The position numbers were made by a program, and so were the translations under genes. A DNA stretch of 7,074 bases from Pseudomonadota bacterium (GTDB lineage Bacteria; Pseudomonadota; Gammaproteobacteria; Steroidobacterales; Steroidobacteraceae), in contig JAJZLX010000641.1 of NCBI GenBank assembly GCA_021850555.1, forward strand, positions 1 through 7,074, written 5' to 3'. Each line of letters opens with the position of its first letter. Within the stretch, counting starts at the first letter, position 1. This document shows, piece after piece, positions 1 to 7,074 of this stretch. Under the pieces are notes generated by a model. That model had not been told where the DNA came from. It was given only the letters and a program-made list of their open reading frames with translations, and did not search any database.

Positions 1-1
1 G

Positions 2-14
2 CATGGTCTACCTC
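2..14 (-). promoter_or_regulatory. possible ribosome-binding site and ATG of a gene leaving the left edge
   Basis: On the minus strand the sequence GAGGTAGACCATG reads across these bases: a GAGGT Shine-Dalgarno core (10-14) followed by ATG at 4-2 with a good spacing. Only the start codon lies in the window, so nothing can be said about the product. It would be the gene downstream of the broken small gene at 88-331, in the same direction. Confidence 0.3.
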
Positions 15-87
15 GATTGAGGATTTTGCGGCACCACTGACGCTTGGGGCAACCTGGGACGCATCGCGGAGCGCGCCACGATGCGGA

Positions 88-331
88 TCAATGCCCGCTG
101 GGCCGGCGCAAGTGGCTCGGGCCGCCCCACCCCATCGCGCCCGGCAGCGTCACGCGCGTTCGTAACCGCGCCCCTTCGATCTTGCACACCTCCTGCTCGG
201 TCACGGCGATCTGAGTCCCGCTCGGCGGCGATCGACTCCAGCGCCTCGTCCTCGTCCATGTGTTCGCAAAGCGCAGCGTACTGCTCGCGCTCGGCGGCCG
301 TAAAGTCCGAAATTCGTAGCAGAGAGGTCAT
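88..331 (-). pseudogene. small hypothetical protein, apparently frameshifted
   Basis: I do not recognise a named family. The ATG at 331 has a strong upstream Shine-Dalgarno region (GGAGAAGGATT). The first 39 codons (331-215) give a charged helical segment that begins MTSLLRISDFTAAEREQYAA and ends at ESIAAERD. The same frame then becomes an Arg/Gly-rich string with poor third-position GC. If the single base at 214 is skipped, reading resumes as QIAVTEQEVCKIEGARLRT..., with about 90% G or C at third positions for 40 codons, to a TGA at 88-90. The coherent product would be about 80 aa. This suggests a one-base insertion (or two-base deletion) near 214, or a sequencing error. Without a shift the reading frame stays open to a TAG at 8, giving 107 aa, and that stop overlaps the next possible ribosome-binding site, so an intact longer protein is not excluded. 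Confidence 0.45.
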
Positions 332-755
332 AATCCTTCTCCGCGACGTGGGCCCCGTGAAGTCGCGCACGACCTCTATCTGCGCGCTGTCGCACCTCAT
401 CAGCGCGGAAGTCCGAACCTACCTATTTTTGACGAGCATCAAGAGTCGGCGCTCCGCGCTTCTCCCCCGGACCGAGCGACTCCACTGCAGCGTCGCTCTG
501 ATGTCCCCGCGCACTGTCCTTTATCGCACCGCCGAAGCGCTGTGGCTGCCGCATGCCGCCGTCCTACACAGCGGCAACGCCACCCTACTCTTGCTCTTCA
601 AAAGTCGTATGCCGCAACATCCCGCGCCGTCTACTGCCGCGCGGATCAACCGGCCGAAGCAGAACACTTCACTAGAAAGCCCGAGCCCTTGCACTCTAAT
701 TTCCGTCAACCAGGTATCTCAAAGTGATTGACAGGCTCCGTTCTGGCCAAACGCC
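332..755. other. intergenic stretch, no supported gene
   Basis: This stretch lies between the stop of the HNH gene and the start of the small minus-strand gene. It holds copy 1 of the 64-bp repeat (384-447), which probably serves as promoter or operator for the small gene. In 448-755 open frames exist on both strands but lack a convincing ribosome-binding site, consistent codon bias or any recognisable motif. I see no clear terminator for the HNH gene here. Confidence 0.5.
384..447 (-). repeat. 64-bp diverged repeat, copy 1
   Basis: It aligns without gaps to 1829-1892, with about 15 mismatches in 64. The best conserved parts, read on the minus strand, are TTGATGC, TCAAAAAT, TAGGT, TTCCGCGC and GAGGTGCG-CAGCGC. 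It ends 53 bp upstream of the ATG at 331. TTGA-N6-TCAA inside it is a dyad (428-441). The shared position ahead of two minus-strand genes points to a common promoter or operator rather than a random duplicate. Confidence 0.6.
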
Positions 756-1763
756 CTACCTTCGCCGATCACTGCACAAGTCACCAATGGCCGCAGCGAG
801 TGTGGACTCGCTCACCGTGCGAGAGACCGGTTCGAGCTTCACGAAACTCCCCATATAACCCCTCTCAATTAAGTGACTGTACCGGGCCGGTTCTTCCGAG
901 ACTCCTACTACCGCTGAGAGCATGTGAAAGACTCGCACTGCGACGCCAACGTGCTTCTGGAGGCAGTTCATCATCGCGAAATGCACGTTGGGGATGTGAT
1001 TCCAGAGCACGAGCGCCGGCAACACTTCACCAACAGATACGCTCCCGGGGATCTTCGGCAGCTTTGGGTCGTCGAGCGGCCCGTCGCTGAGTATCACCTG
1101 CCGAAGCTGTTGCGCACCCTCGTCGTCGAGGTAGTCGTCTCCGAGCCAATACCATGCTAGCTCGTATGCGATCTTCAGCATCCCGCGATTCGGGTCAGTG
1201 AACCTGAAGCTCGGCTGATGGCAGACTACCGGATGCCTGACTTCGGTGAGACCGCGCGCGAGGATCCGCGAGACCGCCAGATCCAACGCGCTGCCGCTGA
1301 GCTCCGTGAGGCCCGCGCGTTTCCGCTCCCGCTGAATTATGAGCGGGATCTGGTCGGCGTCCCGAGAGTCGATCTTGATTTCGACATCCTTCGTACCGTC
1401 CGGCCGCCTCTTTTCGGTCCTGTGTCGAATGAGCTTCAGAGTAACTGTATTAGTGAGGGGATCCCGCCTCGCGATCACCTCTTGCCTTGGTTCATCGCCG
1501 ACGATAGTACCCTTCCCAAAAATGTCGGCGAACGGATCGAGAGTATTTCCTCGCCTGTCCGGTATCTTGAGCTGCGCGCGGACCATCCTCACCAGCGGGT
1601 GCTGAATGACGCCGCGGTCTGCCCGTTCGTTGAGCAGCTCATTGCACGTCTTGCACACTCGGTCGATCGTCAGGGCCCCACCGATCGCGTCGGGGAAGAC
1701 GTGTTCTTCCGAGGGGGGTGCCTCTTTGAGGCAAAAAATACAGAGCACCGCTCCGCCAACCAT
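756..1763 (-). CDS. HNH endonuclease, HNH_5-like N-terminal domain
   Basis: The 335-aa product starts with a zinc-ribbon HNH domain in its first 60 residues: C8-x2-C11, then E20-H21 in SEEHVFPDAIGG, then C37-x2-C40-N41 in CKTCNELLNERAD. This order (Cys pair, E-H-x-x-P with Gly-Gly, Cys pair followed by Asn) is that of the HNH_5 group of beta-beta-alpha-metal nucleases, with H21 and N41 as the expected metal and catalytic positions. The remaining 270 residues match nothing I can name and may bind DNA or a partner. No signal peptide or membrane segment is seen, so the protein should be cytoplasmic. The ATG at 1763 has no good Shine-Dalgarno; a GTG at 1748, just after GGCGGAG, is an alternative that still keeps C8. 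It is divergent from the AAA/phosphoesterase operon. The substrate is unknown; such proteins occur in restriction, anti-phage and mobile-element contexts. Confidence 0.85.
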   Translation of the reverse strand: MVGGAVLCIFCLKEAPPSEEHVFPDAIGGALTIDRVCKTCNELLNERADRGVIQHPLVRMVRAQLKIPDRRGNTLDPFADIFGKGTIVGDEPRQEVIARRDPLTNTVTLKLIRHRTEKRRPDGTKDVEIKIDSRDADQIPLIIQRERKRAGLTELSGSALDLAVSRILARGLTEVRHPVVCHQPSFRFTDPNRGMLKIAYELAWYWLGDDYLDDEGAQQLRQVILSDGPLDDPKLPKIPGSVSVGEVLPALVLWNHIPNVHFAMMNCLQKHVGVAVRVFHMLSAVVGVSEEPARYSHLIERGYMGSFVKLEPVSRTVSESTLAAAIGDLCSDRRR

Positions 1764-1828
1764 ATTCAGTCGCAGGCGCCGATGCTAGGCGTGCGCGAAT
1801 CAAAACTCAATCTAGTGCTTCCGTCCGC

Positions 1829-1892
1829 GCGCTGGCGCACCTCGTCGGCGCGGAAATACACACCTAGGCATTTTTGATTGGCATCAAAAGCC
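1829..1892 (-). repeat. 64-bp diverged repeat, copy 2
   Basis: This is the partner of 384-447, ungapped and about 77% identical. Here the dyad is longer, TTTTGAT-GCCA-ATCAAAA on the minus strand (about 1871-1889). It ends 66 bp upstream of the HNH ATG, much like copy 1 relative to its gene. A further half-site-like string, AATCAAAACT, lies at about 1798-1807. Confidence 0.6.
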
Positions 1893-1958
1893 AGCTCACC
1901 GCTACCTCTCTCCATGACCGAACGCCGCGCCTTTCACCGCCGCGAATGAATATGACAT

Positions 1959-1975
1959 AAGAGTAAGGCACTCTT
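1959..1975. promoter_or_regulatory. inverted repeat overlapping a weak -35-like box
   Basis: AAGAGT-AAGGC-ACTCTT is a 6-bp dyad with a 5-base centre. Its right arm overlaps TTTACA at 1974-1979, a possible plus-strand -35 box, with only a poor -10 (GATACG, 1996-2001) 16 bases on. It could be an operator of the AAA operon. The promoter part is weak. Confidence 0.25.
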
Positions 1976-2077
1976 TACACCCACTCGCAAATTGAGATAC
2001 GCTGCAGGCGCTGAAATGGAATTCGGCTATGCGCCCTTTCTAATTGCGCCGACTAGGAACAAACACTGAATTTGCGA

Positions 2078-2095
2078 CACGACCTCACGGTCGTG
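2078..2095. repeat. perfect inverted repeat in the leader of the AAA operon
   Basis: CACGACC-TCAC-GGTCGTG forms a perfect 7-bp stem with a 4-base loop, about 200 bp before the AAA start. No T-run follows, so it is not a classical terminator. It could be an operator or an RNA hairpin in a long 5' leader. Confidence 0.4.
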
Positions 2096-2296
2096 GACGA
2101 GCGTGTTTACCTGGTCGGCCCGACACTCGGAAATACCGGGGGCGCTCCGCAAAGCGCAGTTGACGGCCGACCGCTTGTACTAGCGGAGGCCGCGCGTGAC
2201 GCCCAAACTTGATCGACTATCTCCCCGCGAAGCCGCGGTACACCCCCTTTCTCTCGCCGCCATCCGCGCCCCCGGTCGCTTGCGCGAGGCGCGGTC

Positions 2297-3493
2297 ATGA
2301 GCCGTCGATCGACTCCACCGCCTCGCCTCATTCTGGAGCGCGAGCGGCGGCGCTGCATGGATCCGATGGAACGGTATGCGGAACGGCACCAACATCTCGA
2401 GCTTGGAAACCTCAGTGTCTGTGCATCCGAAGCGCCGGTTCCACCAACCGCCGCCGAACCCGAACCGATCTCCGCGCCTGAGTTGCCCGCGACGGACCGC
2501 ACGCAGCACATGGCGCGCGTGTTCACTCCCGAGGCGATCGCCGAGGCTCGAGAAGTGCTCGGACCCAAGCCAACAAACTCGCGGGACGTTACCACGTACG
2601 TTCGCAGTGTCGCCTGCCTGGATCGCGCGCAACGTGACGACGGCTGGCGCTCGGTGCCGTGGGCCGGCTCAATGGAGATCGCCGACCCCTTCTCCGGCAT
2701 GGGTCCTGAGTTCGCGAATTTTTCCGAAGTGATCGCACACGTGCGCGAGCAGTGGACGCTCGCGCGCCACGCGCGGTGCGCCGGCGAAGCGCGGATCGAA
2801 CCGATTTTGGTTGTTGGTGCGCCAGGCATCGGAAAATCGCTCTTTGCAACGGCGATTGCCCATCGGATCGGAGAGCGACTGTCTATATTTTCTGCCGGCG
2901 GCGCCCAGGATGCGATGCAACTGTGTGGCACCGACGCGAGATGGGGCAACGCACGCACCGGCATGGTGTTTGATTTGCTGTCTACCGGCGACAGCGCATC
3001 TCCGGTGCTCGTCATCGACGAAGTAGACAAAATCGCACAGGAATCCACAGGCAGTCGCGACACGCCAGTCAACACCCTGCTCGACCTGCTTGAGGAGGAC
3101 TCTGCCCGCCGCTACCGGGACATGTCGCTGCAGCTCGAAATGGATGCGAGTCGCATCATCGTAGTGTGCACGGCGAATGAGCGCGAGCGCATCTTGCCCC
3201 CACTGCTATCTCGCCTGACCGAGTTCCACATCACGTCGCCGACAGCGGAGCAACGCCGCGCGATCCTGCAGCGCCACCTCCTCCGGCTCATCGAGCGACA
3301 CCGATGTCCGACCGGCATCACGTTCGATGAGATGAGCGCCGAAGCGGTACTCGCCACTCCCGACCTCGATGTGCGGGTGCTGCTACGCATGGTGCGCGCC
3401 GGATTCGCTTCTGCGCTCGCGACTGAATCCGGCAAGGTGATCCTCGCTCCGCCGCGGCGACGCGTAGCAAAGCGGCGGATTGGCTTCATCTGA
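2297..3493 (+). CDS. Lon-like AAA+ ATPase without protease domain
   Basis: The 398-aa product has a full AAA+ core: Walker A GAPGIGKS at residues 174-181 (K180), an L-C-G-T-D-A-R-W-G-N pore-loop-like segment near 209-218, Walker B VLVIDEVDK (D241, E242), sensor 1 T-A-N (292-294), an arginine-finger candidate in LLSRL (R306), and a sensor-2 candidate R360 in DLDVRVLLR. The order and the W-x-N-A-R-T-G element resemble Lon ATPase modules, but no Ser-Lys protease domain follows; the protein ends in a basic tail. About 165 N-terminal residues precede the ATPase; part of this is Pro/Glu-rich and I cannot assign it. The ATG at 2297 is supported by GAGG at 2286-2289. The stop lies 10 bp before the phosphoesterase start, so the two are almost certainly co-transcribed. 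It probably remodels or unfolds a protein or nucleoprotein partner. Family assignment is secure; biological role unknown. Confidence 0.9.
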   Translation: MSRRSTPPPRLILERERRRCMDPMERYAERHQHLELGNLSVCASEAPVPPTAAEPEPISAPELPATDRTQHMARVFTPEAIAEAREVLGPKPTNSRDVTTYVRSVACLDRAQRDDGWRSVPWAGSMEIADPFSGMGPEFANFSEVIAHVREQWTLARHARCAGEARIEPILVVGAPGIGKSLFATAIAHRIGERLSIFSAGGAQDAMQLCGTDARWGNARTGMVFDLLSTGDSASPVLVIDEVDKIAQESTGSRDTPVNTLLDLLEEDSARRYRDMSLQLEMDASRIIVVCTANERERILPPLLSRLTEFHITSPTAEQRRAILQRHLLRLIERHRCPTGITFDEMSAEAVLATPDLDVRVLLRMVRAGFASALATESGKVILAPPRRRVAKRRIGFI

Positions 3494-3503
3494 GGTAACG
3501 CAT

Positions 3504-4280
3504 GTGAAGATCCGCGTCCTGTCAGACCTGCATCTCGAGTTCTCGAACTGGAGCCCGCCGCCGTGCGATGAGGATGTCGTCGTCTTGGCGGGGGACGTCC
3601 ACGAGGGACGTGCGGGCATTGCCTGGGCGCGCAAATATTTTCGCGACAAGCCCGTACTCTACATCCCGGGCAACCATGAATACTACGGACGGGACCTCGA
3701 CAAGCTACGCGAAGGCTTGCGCGCGAGCGGGCGCGCGCACGATGTACATGTGCTCGATGGGGACGAGGTGATCGTCGACGGCGTCCGCTTTCTCGGCGCG
3801 ACGCTTTGGACGGATTTTGAGATCGGTGGCTGCGAACCGAAGACAGTAGAAGCTGCGATGCGGCGCTGTCAGGAAGGCATGGCGGATTTCCAAATCATCC
3901 GCCGGTGGGGTTCGTCTCTGCGACCCGAGGACACTCGGGAAATTCACCAAGCGCAACGGGATTGGCTGCGGCGGGCGCTGATGGGCTACACCGCTCTCGG
4001 TGAAGGATTTACTGGTCCGACCGTCGTCGCGACTCACCACGCTCCCTGCGCGCGCAGCATCGCACCGCGGTTCGCGGGCGACCCCCTAAATCCCGCCTTC
4101 TGCAGCGACCTCACCGATTTGATCGGACCCCAAATTGCGCTGTGGATCCATGGCCACATGCATCAGTCCCACGACTACATCGAGTGCGGCACGAGGGTGG
4201 TCTGCAATCCGCGGGGGTATCTGCCGCTCGAGCCGAATCCGGACTTTGATCCGAAGCTGATCATCGAGGTACCGACATGA
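3504..4280 (+). CDS. calcineurin-like metallophosphoesterase
   Basis: All motifs of the dinuclear metal site are present in the 258-aa product: D8-x-H10 in SDLHLEF, G30-D31-V-H33, G56-N57-H58-E59, H178-H179, and H216-G-H218-M-H220. It should be an active phosphoesterase; substrates in this superfamily range from cyclic nucleotides and protein phosphates to DNA ends, and nothing here decides which. The length fits single-domain bacterial members. I choose the GTG at 3504 because GAGGTAA (3491-3497), which overlaps the ATPase stop, sits at a proper distance and translation then begins VKIRVLSDLH, typical of the family. An upstream TTG at 3480 would add eight residues and overlap the ATPase gene. 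There is no signal peptide, so it is cytoplasmic. The tight coupling to the AAA+ gene suggests a joint function. Confidence 0.9.
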   Translation: MKIRVLSDLHLEFSNWSPPPCDEDVVVLAGDVHEGRAGIAWARKYFRDKPVLYIPGNHEYYGRDLDKLREGLRASGRAHDVHVLDGDEVIVDGVRFLGATLWTDFEIGGCEPKTVEAAMRRCQEGMADFQIIRRWGSSLRPEDTREIHQAQRDWLRRALMGYTALGEGFTGPTVVATHHAPCARSIAPRFAGDPLNPAFCSDLTDLIGPQIALWIHGHMHQSHDYIECGTRVVCNPRGYLPLEPNPDFDPKLIIEVPT

Positions 4281-4375
4281 CCCGGATGTTCAACGAAGTG
4301 GTCAGCGGCCCTGTTCAAACCGCATTAGGCGACGCAGGCTCGGCGCACCGACCTGGGCTTGCACTGAGAGGCCAC

Positions 4376-4433
4376 GGGCGCTCCGCGCCCTGCGCGCCAT
4401 CCCTGCGCCCGGAGGGCGGGCGTCCGTCCCGCC
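4376..4433. terminator. GC-rich hairpin cluster between convergent genes
   Basis: Three adjacent potential hairpins lie here: GGGCGC-TCC-GCGCCC (4376-4390), CGCCC-GGA-GGGCG (4406-4418) and GGCGGG-N7-CCCGCC (4415-4433). The last two compete for the same bases. The rightmost one abuts the stop codon of the minus-strand RHH gene; the phosphoesterase ends about 95 bp to the left. There is no T-run, so termination would be of the GC-stem or Rho-assisted kind. It is a plausible bidirectional terminator. Confidence 0.4.
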
Positions 4434-4615
4434 TACTTGCGGCCCGGGGGGCGGAGGACATGGGCGTACTTCGCGAGCAGATCGTCCAGCGCCTCACGAA
4501 GGTATGCGGATTGGGGAACCCTCGTCAGATCAGACAGCTTTCGAAGTTGAGCGACTGCCTCCGGCGCGAAGTAACCCGCCAACTGTGTTTGGTTGCCTTT
4601 CGATTTTGAGACCAA
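4433..4615 (-). CDS. ribbon-helix-helix transcriptional regulator
   Basis: The predicted 60-aa product has the layout of an RHH (MetJ/Arc-type) dimer subunit: a short strand NQTQLAGYF (8-16), helix A APEAVAQLRKLSDLTR (17-32), the turn V-P-Q-S, and helix B AYLREALDDLLAKYAHVL (37-54), followed by a basic tail. Strand residues Q9, Q11 and nearby K4/K6 would contact the DNA major groove. I choose a TTG start at 4615 because AGGAG (4625-4629) is nine bases upstream; a GTG at 4621 is only three bases from it. An ATG at 4687 would extend the protein through the promoter of the opposite gene and looks wrong. The gene is divergent from the lipoprotein operon and lies next to a palindrome in that operon's promoter, so it is probably the repressor of that operon and of itself. 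Partner antitoxin roles are possible, but no toxin is adjacent on this strand. Confidence 0.75.
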   Translation of the reverse strand: MVSKSKGNQTQLAGYFAPEAVAQLRKLSDLTRVPQSAYLREALDDLLAKYAHVLRPPGRK

Positions 4616-4631
4616 AGTCACACACTCCTGA

Positions 4632-4659
4632 TTGCAATGACCTACGTGTAGGTTATACT
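4632..4659 (+). promoter_or_regulatory. sigma-70-like promoter of the lipoprotein/ART-like operon
   Basis: TTGCAA (4632-4637) and TATACT (4654-4659) are separated by 16 bases. The start of transcription would be near 4666, leaving a leader of about 42 bases before the ATG at 4708. On the opposite strand TATAAC (4657-4652) overlaps the same -10 and may serve the divergent RHH gene, although its -35 is poor. It is the best promoter in the window. Confidence 0.65.
4640..4653. promoter_or_regulatory. palindromic operator candidate inside the promoter spacer
   Basis: ACCTAC-GT-GTAGGT is a 6-bp-arm dyad that lies wholly between the -35 and -10 boxes and touches the -10. A protein bound here would block RNA polymerase on both strands. 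The neighbouring RHH regulator is the natural candidate. Confidence 0.55.
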
Positions 4660-4683
4660 GACTGCACCTTGATGTGCATATTA

Positions 4684-4691
4684 GCACGTAG
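4684..4691. promoter_or_regulatory. second operator-like half site in the leader
   Basis: The core CACGTAG (4685-4691) is the exact reverse complement of CTACGTG (4642-4648) in the promoter palindrome, 36 bases away. It lies downstream of the predicted transcription start. Two such sites would allow cooperative binding. GTGC at 4674-4677 also pairs with GCAC at 4684-4687, so an RNA hairpin is the alternative reading. Confidence 0.35.
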
Positions 4692-4707
4692 TTGAGACGA
4701 CACCACT

Positions 4708-5094
4708 ATGATCCAGTCCCGTATCGCAATCCTTACCCTCACCGCCCTCGCGGTCTTTTCCCTCTCTGCGTGCTCGCGATCCGGCAGTGCATATGTGGGC
4801 ACATGGGTGGGTCCTCACCATGACGTGGAAACCATTACCCGCCATGGCGGCATTTTTGCGATCCAGCAGGAAGGCCACGCCTCCACCAACTACTACCACC
4901 TGGACTCCCAGGGCGATCTAACCGACGGGGTGGTCATCGCGTCAATCGACCGGACGGGCGACCTGATTCTGCACAGTCCCTTCGGAAGTGAACGAATGCA
5001 CCGCGGCCATCGTCTCTCGCCGGCCGCCCTGCGCGCGCTCGCCGCACGCCAGGAAGCGCGGCAGGCAAAAGCTGCCCCTATGCCTCCGCTTTGA
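4708..5094 (+). CDS. small predicted lipoprotein
   Basis: This 128-aa protein begins with a basic n-region (MIQSR), a hydrophobic stretch (6-18) and the lipobox L19-S-A-C22, so signal peptidase II should cleave before C22. S23 at position +2 (and R24 next) favours sorting to the outer membrane. The mature part (about 100 aa) starts with SAYVGTWVGP and alternates short strands with glycine turns, which suggests a small beta-barrel or lipocalin-like fold. The last 30 residues are Ala/Arg/Gln-rich and end in a Pro-rich tip. I do not recognise a family. The Shine-Dalgarno is weak (GAGACGA near 4695). It is the first gene after the operator-controlled promoter, and the ART-like gene follows 28 bp later. 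Confidence 0.75.
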   Translation: MIQSRIAILTLTALAVFSLSACSRSGSAYVGTWVGPHHDVETITRHGGIFAIQQEGHASTNYYHLDSQGDLTDGVVIASIDRTGDLILHSPFGSERMHRGHRLSPAALRALAARQEARQAKAAPMPPL

Positions 5095-5106
5095 CTCTCT
5101 CACCTA

Positions 5107-5119
5107 CTCACCGGAGATC
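5107..5119 (+). promoter_or_regulatory. ribosome-binding leader shared with 5714-5727
   Basis: CTCACCGGAGATC stands just before the ATG at 5123, with GGAGAT as Shine-Dalgarno four bases from the ATG. An almost identical string precedes the gene at 5733. It decides the start of the ART-like gene in favour of 5123 rather than the upstream in-frame ATG at 4988. Confidence 0.55.
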
Positions 5120-5122
5120 TGC

Positions 5123-5680
5123 ATGCTCACCCCGTCCATCCCTGCCGCGGCTACCGCTGTGCCCGCCCCCGCCACCATAGAGACTCTCTACGCAGAAGCG
5201 CAGCGGGCAGCGTGCTTCGCGGGAAGCTACTCGCGGATGGAGGTGATCGCCTCCTACTTCCCGCGGCTGCCCCGTCTCGAGTGGTACCGCCTCCTCGGCG
5301 AGCAGGGGAGCGTGTGCGATGACATTTCTGCCTGGAAGGTGTTTCTCATCCCCCTACTGGGTCGCGCCCAGCGAGAAGAGCTCAACGCCATGATGGATGC
5401 GCGGGAGCGCGAAGCGCTGGCCGCGCTGCCGACGAAGTTCACGGTCTACCGCGGCTGCTACGCATGCAATCGTCGCGGCCTGTCTTGGTCCACAAATCGC
5501 GCCATCGCCGAGACATTCCCGTCGCTTAACCGGTATCGCCGACGTGGCGACCAGCCTCTGCTCATCACAGGCAGCATCGCGAAACGGCAGGCAGTGCTGA
5601 AACTCGATCGCGATGAGTCGGAAATCATCGCCGCCAAAGTGCGGGTCCTCCGTGAGGAACCGCTGCCTCCTATCGCCTGA
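5123..5680 (+). CDS. ADP-ribosyltransferase-like protein (putative)
   Basis: This 185-aa protein has an Ala/Pro-rich start, a helical N-terminal part (about 20-100, with LEWYRLLGEQ and an Arg/Glu-rich helix 83-98), and a C-terminal half with the sequence order of the R-S-E class of ADP-ribosyltransferases. R110 stands in the strand TVYRG, S121-W-S123-T124 follows as the S-x-S/T motif in GLSWST, and E165-S-E167 in RDESEII fits the E-x-E loop of arginine-modifying members. NAD-dependent modification of a protein or nucleic acid is therefore possible, but rests on motif reading only. C112 and C115 form a CxxC pair next to R110, which is unusual for the fold. No signal peptide is present, so it should act in the cytoplasm unless exported by another route. 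It sits 28 bp after a lipoprotein gene and 52 bp before a small helical gene, in one operon. If the motif match is chance, it is simply a hypothetical protein. Confidence 0.8.
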   Translation: MLTPSIPAAATAVPAPATIETLYAEAQRAACFAGSYSRMEVIASYFPRLPRLEWYRLLGEQGSVCDDISAWKVFLIPLLGRAQREELNAMMDAREREALAALPTKFTVYRGCYACNRRGLSWSTNRAIAETFPSLNRYRRRGDQPLLITGSIAKRQAVLKLDRDESEIIAAKVRVLREEPLPPIA

Positions 5681-5713
5681 CCTTCTCACTCACCACCCAC
5701 ACCACTGATCACT

Positions 5714-5727
5714 CTCACCCGGAGATC
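5714..5727 (+). promoter_or_regulatory. ribosome-binding leader shared with 5107-5119
   Basis: CTCACCCGGAGATC, with GGAGAT six bases before the ATG at 5733, repeats the leader of the preceding gene with one extra C. Both leaders also follow a TGAC-(TC-rich) string that starts at the stop codon of the upstream gene. Confidence 0.55.
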
Positions 5728-5732
5728 CCCAC

Positions 5733-5978
5733 ATGCGTAACAACGTCACCCGTATCCGCGCCCGATCCACCACGACCGCTGCTGCCGCCGCATCGACCCC
5801 CGCTCCGCTCTGCGAGGTGATCGACGCGCTCCAGGATGCTGAAGCACTCGTCGTCACTGCCATGAACTCTTCTTGCGCCGAGGGCGACACCCCCGAGGCA
5901 ATCACGCTCGGCTTTGCCCTCGAGCGACTCCGCACTGCCTTGGCGGCCGTCGGCGGGATGCCGGCAACCCAGGACTAG
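5733..5978 (+). CDS. 81-aa hypothetical helical protein
   Basis: I do not recognise a family. The first 25 residues are basic and then Thr/Ala-rich and probably disordered (MRNNVTRIRARSTTTAAAAA). The rest predicts two or three helices: CEVIDALQDAEALVVTAMNS (27-46) and PEAITLGFALERLRTALAAV (54-73), joined by an acidic loop. A signal peptide is unlikely, because the early hydrophobic run is too short and lacks Leu/Val. The strong ribosome-binding site and the operon position between the ART-like gene and the large lipoprotein gene support a real gene. Its small size, its helices and its place straight after the ART-like gene would suit a binding partner or immunity protein, but that is a guess. 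The stop codon lies inside the first of three CCAGGAC repeats. Confidence 0.7.
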   Translation: MRNNVTRIRARSTTTAAAAASTPAPLCEVIDALQDAEALVVTAMNSSCAEGDTPEAITLGFALERLRTALAAVGGMPATQD

Positions 5979-6018: not shown

Positions 6019-7074
6019 ATGCCCACGATCAAATCTCGCACCCTCAGCATCCTCCTCGCCGCGCTCGCAACCGTCTCCCTGGCCGCTTGTGGCGGCGGGG
6101 GCGGGGGCGGAACCACTGCATCCAGCCCCGGCGGCGGGGCGACCGCGCCGAACGCAAAGCTCGCAAGCTGCACCGACCCGAACTACGACACATCGACCTA
6201 CGCGGGCATCGCGCCCTGCATGACGGTGACCGGCCTCGCCTCCGGACAGTCCGTCACAGTGTCCGACGGCCAGAGCACGCTCACCGAGAGCAGCAACGGG
6301 ACGTACACCTTCCCTGGCATCAGCAATGGCACCGAGGCCGGCGCGGCCGTGAACCCGACGGTGACTTTCAGCGTCACTGCCGCCACCGGCGGAGCCACGT
6401 GTTCGCTCAGCGGCGGGGGAGCCACCGCAGGCCAAGCGGCGTCGGCTACCGCGTATGCGTTAAGCGTGCTCTGCGCTCCATATCCGGCCGTGAAGCCGCA
6501 GATCCCGAAGATCACGACGATGCCTGGGGCGAGCGGCACTGCCCAGGTGATCGCATCACCTACGATCGTGCCGGTATACATCAGCACCGGCTCGCTCGCG
6601 ACGGGTAACGAGTCGAACGATGCGACGTTCCTTAGCCAACTGGCGAACTCGCAGGAGTGGGGGCTGCTCTCGCAGTACGGCGTGGGGGCTGCCACGATCG
6701 ACGCGGCCGTGACCGTCGACCCGGGCGCGTGGAGTCAGTACTACACGGTGAAGCCCTCGGACCTCAGCACCATCGCCCAGGATGTCGAGTCTCAAGGCGA
6801 TACACTGTCGGCCAGCACTGTCCTCGTGATTTACTTGCCGCCCACGGTCGGCGCCGATCCCGCAGGAACGTACGGGACGGGCTACACCGGTACGGTGGCC
6901 TCTGGTAGCACGAATGTCCCCTTCGCGCTGGTGACCGACAATTCGAACAACGGGCAGTACATCGCGGCGGACAGCGTGTATTGGATGGCGGAAGCGGAAC
7001 TGGTCAACGACGTGACCGGTGGAAATGGCCAGGGCTATGCCTGGATGTCCTCGAACCCGGACCTCTGGCTCGGT
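6019..7074 (+). CDS. large predicted lipoprotein with Ig-like domain, runs off the right edge
   Basis: The frame is open for 352 codons to the window end with no stop. The ATG at 6019 has AGGA eight bases upstream. The protein starts with a basic n-region (MPTIKSR), a hydrophobic core and the lipobox L21-A-A-C24, followed by a seven-glycine linker (25-31), as in many beta/gammaproteobacterial outer-membrane lipoproteins. Residues about 68-154 (VTGLASGQSVTV ... SNGTYTFPGI ... TFSVTAATGGATCSLSGGG ... LSVLC) follow the pattern of the Ig-like beta-sandwich repeat common in such proteins, with C128 and C152 near the strands. From about 160 the protein resembles secreted proteins with the elements W-x-x-x-x-Q/E-Y-G-V-G (here WGLLSQYGVGAATI, 214-227) and a strand V-L-V-I-Y-L-P (268-274). 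In relatives I remember, an S-H-E-x-x-E-A-x-T-D-P motif follows; here the matching place reads AEAELVNDVTGG (324-335), so the catalytic histidine would be missing. Function unknown; a surface location is likely. Confidence 0.8.
   Translation, partial: MPTIKSRTLSILLAALATVSLAACGGGGGGGTTASSPGGGATAPNAKLASCTDPNYDTSTYAGIAPCMTVTGLASGQSVTVSDGQSTLTESSNGTYTFPGISNGTEAGAAVNPTVTFSVTAATGGATCSLSGGGATAGQAASATAYALSVLCAPYPAVKPQIPKITTMPGASGTAQVIASPTIVPVYISTGSLATGNESNDATFLSQLANSQEWGLLSQYGVGAATIDAAVTVDPGAWSQYYTVKPSDLSTIAQDVESQGDTLSASTVLVIYLPPTVGADPAGTYGTGYTGTVASGSTNVPFALVTDNSNNGQYIAADSVYWMAEAELVNDVTGGNGQGYAWMSSNPDLWLG

Follow-up and report, generated by a model that had tools for sequence, protein, structure and literature searches.

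In a 7,074-nucleotide stretch of Steroidobacteraceae DNA (the window, meaning the whole stretch analysed), we found that the open reading frame (ORF) at positions 5123-5680 of the forward strand probably codes for a cytosolic mono-ADP-ribosyltransferase that stands alone, is of the R-S-E type and is carried as cargo on phages and integrative elements. Its family, conservation, predicted fold, insertion as a single gene and mobile-element setting come from the analysis itself. The earlier note on this DNA had proposed a putative ADP-ribosyltransferase (ART) with R110, SWST at residues 121-124 and E-S-E at 165-167 occurring in that order, and the ORF and these motifs were confirmed by a family alignment and by an AlphaFold2 (AF2) model. 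The alignment has 127 rows, comprising the window protein, seven loci and 119 proteins, with P0001, a protein 98% identical to that of the window, dropped from it. The features of the gene, which starts with ATG, are as follows:

5123-5680 (+): ART gene (185 amino acids), phrog_4776 member (ORF, PHROGs profile, AF2 model and fold matches)
5177-5434 (+): helical N-terminal half, residues 19-104 (AF2 model and alignment)
5306-5308 (+): codon of G62, departing from the family tryptophan (W in 122 of 127 rows and in P0001)
5435-5662 (+): ART core, predicted to form six strands between residues 105 and 180 (AF2 model, matches to solved ARTs)
5450-5452 (+): codon of R110, the candidate catalytic arginine (R in 123 of 127 rows)
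5483-5491 (+): codons of S121-W122-S123, an STS-like motif (S121 in 125 of 127 rows; position 123 T in 109, S in 18)
5615-5623 (+): codons of E165-S-E167, the ExE motif (both glutamates in 127 of 127 rows)

Since the R-S-E triad is kept across the 127 aligned family members, we take it to be more than a chance pattern. Around it, G111 is invariant, R163 is kept in 126 rows and W122 in 109, and the N-terminal half is conserved as well, with R38 in all rows and M91 in 126, besides the tryptophan at position 62. The sequence carries the marks of the R-S-E clade, namely an arginine on the first core strand, an STS-like serine and the glutamate of an (E/Q)xE motif. Of the triad named in the earlier note, R110 and E167 stood, while the conserved serine proved to be S121 and not S123, where most of the family has threonine. 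As to residue 62, the change from the tryptophan of P0001 may be natural variation or an assembly error, and the window copy is perhaps atypical in this respect.

In PHROGs v4 the protein matched phrog_4776 (E 1.7e-15, residues 81-175), which is annotated as being of unknown function; no Pfam, NCBIfam or PADLOC-DB 2.0.0 family matched at E <= 1, comparisons with the phage T4 ARTs ModA and ModB gave nothing significant, and sequence searches of the PDB, with the single protein and with a profile, returned no credible match up to E 10. The main rival of a transferase is an enzyme that uses up NAD+, either as a glycohydrolase or as a phosphorylase, as in an abortive-infection-like defence or a RES-like toxin, and we regard it as unlikely. 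An invariant pair of glutamates, as found here at 165 and 167, fits transferases. RES enzymes have lost the serine and the glutamate, according to section 3.7.4 of PMC9503650, whereas the window protein retains S121 and E167 and had no RES match in the Pfam search. Moreover, none of the PADLOC-DB families matched the protein, and no helix-turn-helix antitoxin gene recurs beside the ART gene in the eight loci of the close subfamily (L017-L024, from genome and viral contigs).

The predicted structure has the split beta-sheet of the ART fold, and structure prediction followed by fold search thus supported the R-S-E ART proposal. Residues 19-100 are mainly helical in the AF2 model, in agreement with the added helical N-terminal half that had been described. 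R110 lies on the predicted strand 105-112, S121-W-S-T124 sits in and just after the predicted strand 121-123, and E165-S-E167 stands at the beginning of the predicted strand 167-169. Matches to solved ARTs cover residues of about 91-185; taken alone, the Foldseek search of the PDB would have been unconvincing. Another NAD+- or nucleotide-using enzyme with an ART-like fold, for example a KptA-like RNA 2'-phosphotransferase, could account for such a model, but we consider this improbable. KptA belongs to the H-H-h clade, and the catalytic motif of Tpt1/KptA differs from R-S-E. The window protein instead has the R-S-ExE motif, and its model matched only the ART half of Tpt1. The H-H-h clade is itself named after its residues (PMC9503650, section 3.7.1). 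A search for the KptA family in 40 genomes found none.

The predicted mono-ADP-ribosyltransferase belongs to a sizeable, uncharacterized family. A first protein search gave five matches, P0001 among them, and a profile search found 181 relatives at E <= 0.001 among 8000 scored candidates; the best 120 of these were listed and examined, and none of the 120 had a precomputed Pfam domain. All 104 members of alignment A4 matched phrog_4776. Five Mycobacterium phage records and six IMG/VR loci carry members of the wider family, and gp121 of Mycobacterium phage JoeDirt is 27.5% identical over residues 38-169. In a 53-row tree a short subfamily (15 rows, seven with known context) was split from a longer phage branch with 100/100 support; the window protein falls in the short subfamily and does not have the approximately 50 N-terminal residues of its phrog_4776 relatives. 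In all ten pairs of five genes the proportion of nonsynonymous differences was below that of synonymous ones (pN < pS), with synonymous distances (dS) large or saturated in most. Literature searches found nothing on phrog_4776, which may be in the supplementary tables of PMC9503650, and nothing joining JoeDirt with ADP-ribosyl.

Among the phage relatives we also observed ARTs fused, in both orders, to an HD-type phosphohydrolase (P0064, P0065, P0081 and P0114; L061-L070). An ART and a phosphodiesterase in one polypeptide are otherwise known from SidE-type enzymes. Fold search with the model of an HD-fused protein is uninformative about its ART portion, because HD hydrolases took up the match list. 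In the literature on ARTs with an HD domain, the available part of PMC7824862 contains nothing on such a fusion, and a search on phosphoribosyl ubiquitination returned no paper. One could imagine that phrog_4776 represents an ART family, so far undescribed, of phages and integrative elements, in which the N-terminal helical half with its invariant residues recognizes the substrate and the HD fusions of some phages first add and then trim or remove ADP-ribose, the window representing a stand-alone branch inserted as a one-gene cassette; we offer this scheme only as a doubtful speculation.

In the window, the ART gene lies within a block of host genes, which the earlier note had described correctly in its content of lipoprotein-like ORFs, an 81-amino-acid ORF and a ribbon-helix-helix (RHH) gene. 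The features outside the ART gene are these:

1-4 (-): start of a serine recombinase gene that extends beyond the window (start codon 4-2; continued on contig C223)
4433-4687 (-): RHH gene of the host block (PF12651, E 1.4e-11; conserved in G022 and G025)
4708-5094 (+): 128-amino-acid lipoprotein-like gene of the host block, outside the ART system (present in G022 and G025 without the ART gene)
5111-5119 (+): left copy of CCGGAGATC, part of the ART gene leader (repeated at 5719-5727)
5113-5717 (+): inserted segment, absent from the corresponding block of G022, which is of the same genus (nucleotide alignment)
5719-5727 (+): right copy of CCGGAGATC, part of the leader of the 81-amino-acid gene (repeat of 5111-5119)
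5733-5978 (+): 81-amino-acid gene, which belongs to the host block and is no partner of the ART (matches in 60 genomes; G022 and G025)
6019-7074: long lipoprotein-like ORF running off the window end (ORF list)

Comparison with G022, a genome of the same genus, revealed that the ART gene was inserted on its own into a cluster of lipoprotein genes that already existed. Window positions 1938-5112 align to G022 in a single gapped alignment at 80% identity, positions 5718-5791 resume there 5 bases after the end of that match, and the approximately 605 bases absent from G022 contain the ART gene alone. Both G022 and a second genome of the genus, G025, have the RHH gene, the 128-amino-acid lipoprotein, the 81-amino-acid gene and the long lipoprotein in the same order without the ART gene; the identities of G025 to the window are 65%, 76%, 52% and 85%, respectively. 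Membership of the ART gene in the lipoprotein operon, which the earlier note had suggested, is therefore not supported. The CCGGAGATC copies at both insertion ends may reflect an insertion duplication or a common leader sequence.

The same comparison bears on a type II toxin-antitoxin pair in which the 81-amino-acid or the RHH protein would be the antitoxin, a reading that we find very improbable and with these partners largely refuted. It was attractive because RHH_3 and Antitox_RHH domains are also matched by the adjoining RHH product, a small gene lies downstream, and a mechanically called ORF of 85-204 amino acids overlaps the ART start in five of the eight close-subfamily loci (L017, L018, L019, L023 and L024). 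These overlapping ORFs, however, have no mutual blastp match at E 1e-4 and no Pfam match, and the eight loci share no immediate neighbour that could serve as a conserved adjacent antitoxin gene. The 60 genomes examined comprise the assembly that holds the window and 59 related ones, 36 of them from the same genus. The 81-amino-acid gene stands directly upstream of a long-lipoprotein match in seven of its eight matches there, and the single genome with an ART match, G020, has it on a contig (locus L017) without the block genes, where no ORF matches the RHH or 81-amino-acid genes. Since the host block exists without the ART gene and the 81-amino-acid gene is tied to the long lipoprotein, neither that gene nor the RHH gene is an ART partner, and both the partner role and the RHH control envisaged in the earlier note found no support. 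An envelope-linked modification system working with lipoproteins is the most far-fetched of the readings: the ART gene does lie between two lipoprotein genes, and in L021 a lipoprotein-like ORF likewise precedes its relative immediately (by eye), but the lipoprotein block is found without it and the other close relatives sit among integrase and phage genes.

The mobile setting in turn fits a cargo gene encoding an intracellular mono-ADP-ribosyltransferase, for which, in accordance with the earlier description, no signal peptide was seen when the N-terminus was read by eye. A recombinase or integrase lies within 5 kb in seven of the eight close-subfamily loci (L017, L018, L019, L020, L021, L023 and L024), a raw count given without a random-gene baseline, the one of L017 being recognized only by its similarity to that of L025. 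In L022, whose contig begins 326 bases before the ART match, none was recognized. A terminase is encoded in L023 as well, and a tape-measure protein in L024. The immediate neighbours differ between the eight loci, and blastp recurrence was confined to integrases, a single pair of primases and two pairs of phage genes. Ten chosen neighbours from three IMG/VR contigs included a single-stranded DNA-binding protein (SSB) with WhiB (L007), SSB with a helicase (L008) and an HNH endonuclease (L003), and no head gene.

Window positions 1-3911 are 99.95% identical to contig C223 of the window's genome (estimated contamination 5.53), on which the serine recombinase (PF00239 and PF07508) continues and overlaps a tRNA-Met with its far end. 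As C223 ends at 3911, the support for the region with the ART gene comes from the window sequence, P0001 and the synteny with G022. In G020 the ART gene is followed directly by a serine recombinase related to that one (31% identity across 549 positions) and likewise ending in a tRNA-Met. A tyrosine integrase and a DUF4224 gene stand in its place in G022, next to tRNA-Arg, so that the same island backbone seems to have swapped its integration module. The tyrosine integrase occupies L042 4968-6178 (G022) and the serine recombinase L025 9-1502 (window's genome). ART matches were sparse and related genomes with an empty site exist (G022 and G025): besides the one genome in 60, there was one among an order sample of 396 (again G020) and two weak ones among a phylum sample of 398 (G246, E 2.2e-9; G329, E 5.2e-4), and none in a plasmid collection at E <= 1e-5. 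A first scan of genome contigs with alignment A1 gave 10 pattern-matching stretches, none a relative, and a second with alignment A5 gave 6.

We favour an intracellular mono-ADP-ribosyltransferase because the gene is stand-alone and mobile, has no recurring partner, conserves R-S-ExE and may be used like T4 ModA/ModB and AcrIF11; NAD+ binding, transferase activity, arginine preference, target and the element's benefit are what we infer beyond the observations. The C-terminal core with R110, S121 and E167 would bind NAD+ and transfer ADP-ribose to a macromolecule, which the helical N-terminal half may help to choose. The ExE motif goes with arginine-directed ADP-ribosylation, and since E165-x-E167 is invariant, the acceptor may be a protein arginine. 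In the favoured case a host or competitor target would be modified for the element's benefit, which might be host reprogramming, the disabling of a defence or the exclusion of rivals. The comparison with ModA/ModB- and AcrIF11-like use draws on parts of PMC12421852 and on sections 3.3.1, 3.7.1 and 3.7.4 of PMC9503650.

Several observations concern the host block itself. The RHH start is probably near 4624 (by eye), conservation in G022 and G025 beginning at residue 25, and the 4708-5094 product has an LSAC lipobox (by eye). A promoter-like site, TTGCAA-16-TATACT, lies at 4632-4659 between the RHH and lipoprotein genes, its spacer holding an imperfect palindrome at 4640-4653 (by eye). As an RHH operator this stretch was rejected: 1 such site was found against 0.5 expected in shuffles, and neither G022 nor G025 conserves it. 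The long lipoprotein (593-604 amino acids as called in G022) has no Pfam match, is matched in 10 of the 60 genomes, the window's own among them, and occurs in multiple copies per genome in the genus (G003, G025 and G028). Positions 2297-4280 hold an AAA ATPase and a calcineurin-like phosphoesterase, found together in other genomes of the genus (L055 and L058); the phosphoesterase matches the PADLOC candidate PDC-S10 (E 2e-9) and was not found in the G025 stretch. A second insertion relative to G022, of approximately 1.5 kb at 443-1937, holds an HNH_5 endonuclease gene at 756-1763 (-), and its flanks, 294-442 and 1938 onward, are 42 bases apart there. The host block thus looks like a hotspot for single-gene cargo; in the available part of a satellite-hotspot paper (PMC9122126) the term ADP-ribosyl was not present.

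Should the activity prove real, phrog_4776, so far without a function and with the relatives counted above, could be assigned as an enzyme family of phage-host conflict. Its reaction would be easy to assay, with E167 as a clear inactive control, and the HD fusions make a two-step chemistry testable. Because ARTs of mobile elements, such as AcrIF11 and T4 ModA/ModB, have proved to serve anti-defence or host takeover, the target could point to a component of the host or its defences not yet known to be vulnerable. The one-gene insertion also means that the neighbours here would mislead operon-based annotation.

Among known systems, phrog_4776 proteins such as JoeDirt gp121 are of the same family, of which the window protein represents a separate, shorter subfamily. 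Tpt1/KptA enzymes share one half of their structure with the model, and the PDE-mART enzymes of the SidE family are among the closest systems by their logic of an ART combined with a phosphodiesterase. AcrIF11 is, in the parts of PMC12421852 available, a small ART spread on phages and plasmids that acts inside the cell as an anti-CRISPR; it differs by description, its tested residues H20/Y46 and D146/E147 not being the R-S-E set, and it was not among the listed VIA matches. With T4 Mod proteins, hhalign to ModA, ModB and an eight-row Mod alignment gave no significant match (probability 1.3 and P 0.04); the C-half score of 20.7 compares with a maximum of 21.1 and a mean of 11.6 in 60 column shuffles, and an S...A..F stretch was aligned in three of four Mod alignments, shuffled controls scoring equally high. 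In motif order, RG ... SxS/T ... ExE, the window protein resembles ModA and ModB, which are phage-encoded intracellular ARTs.
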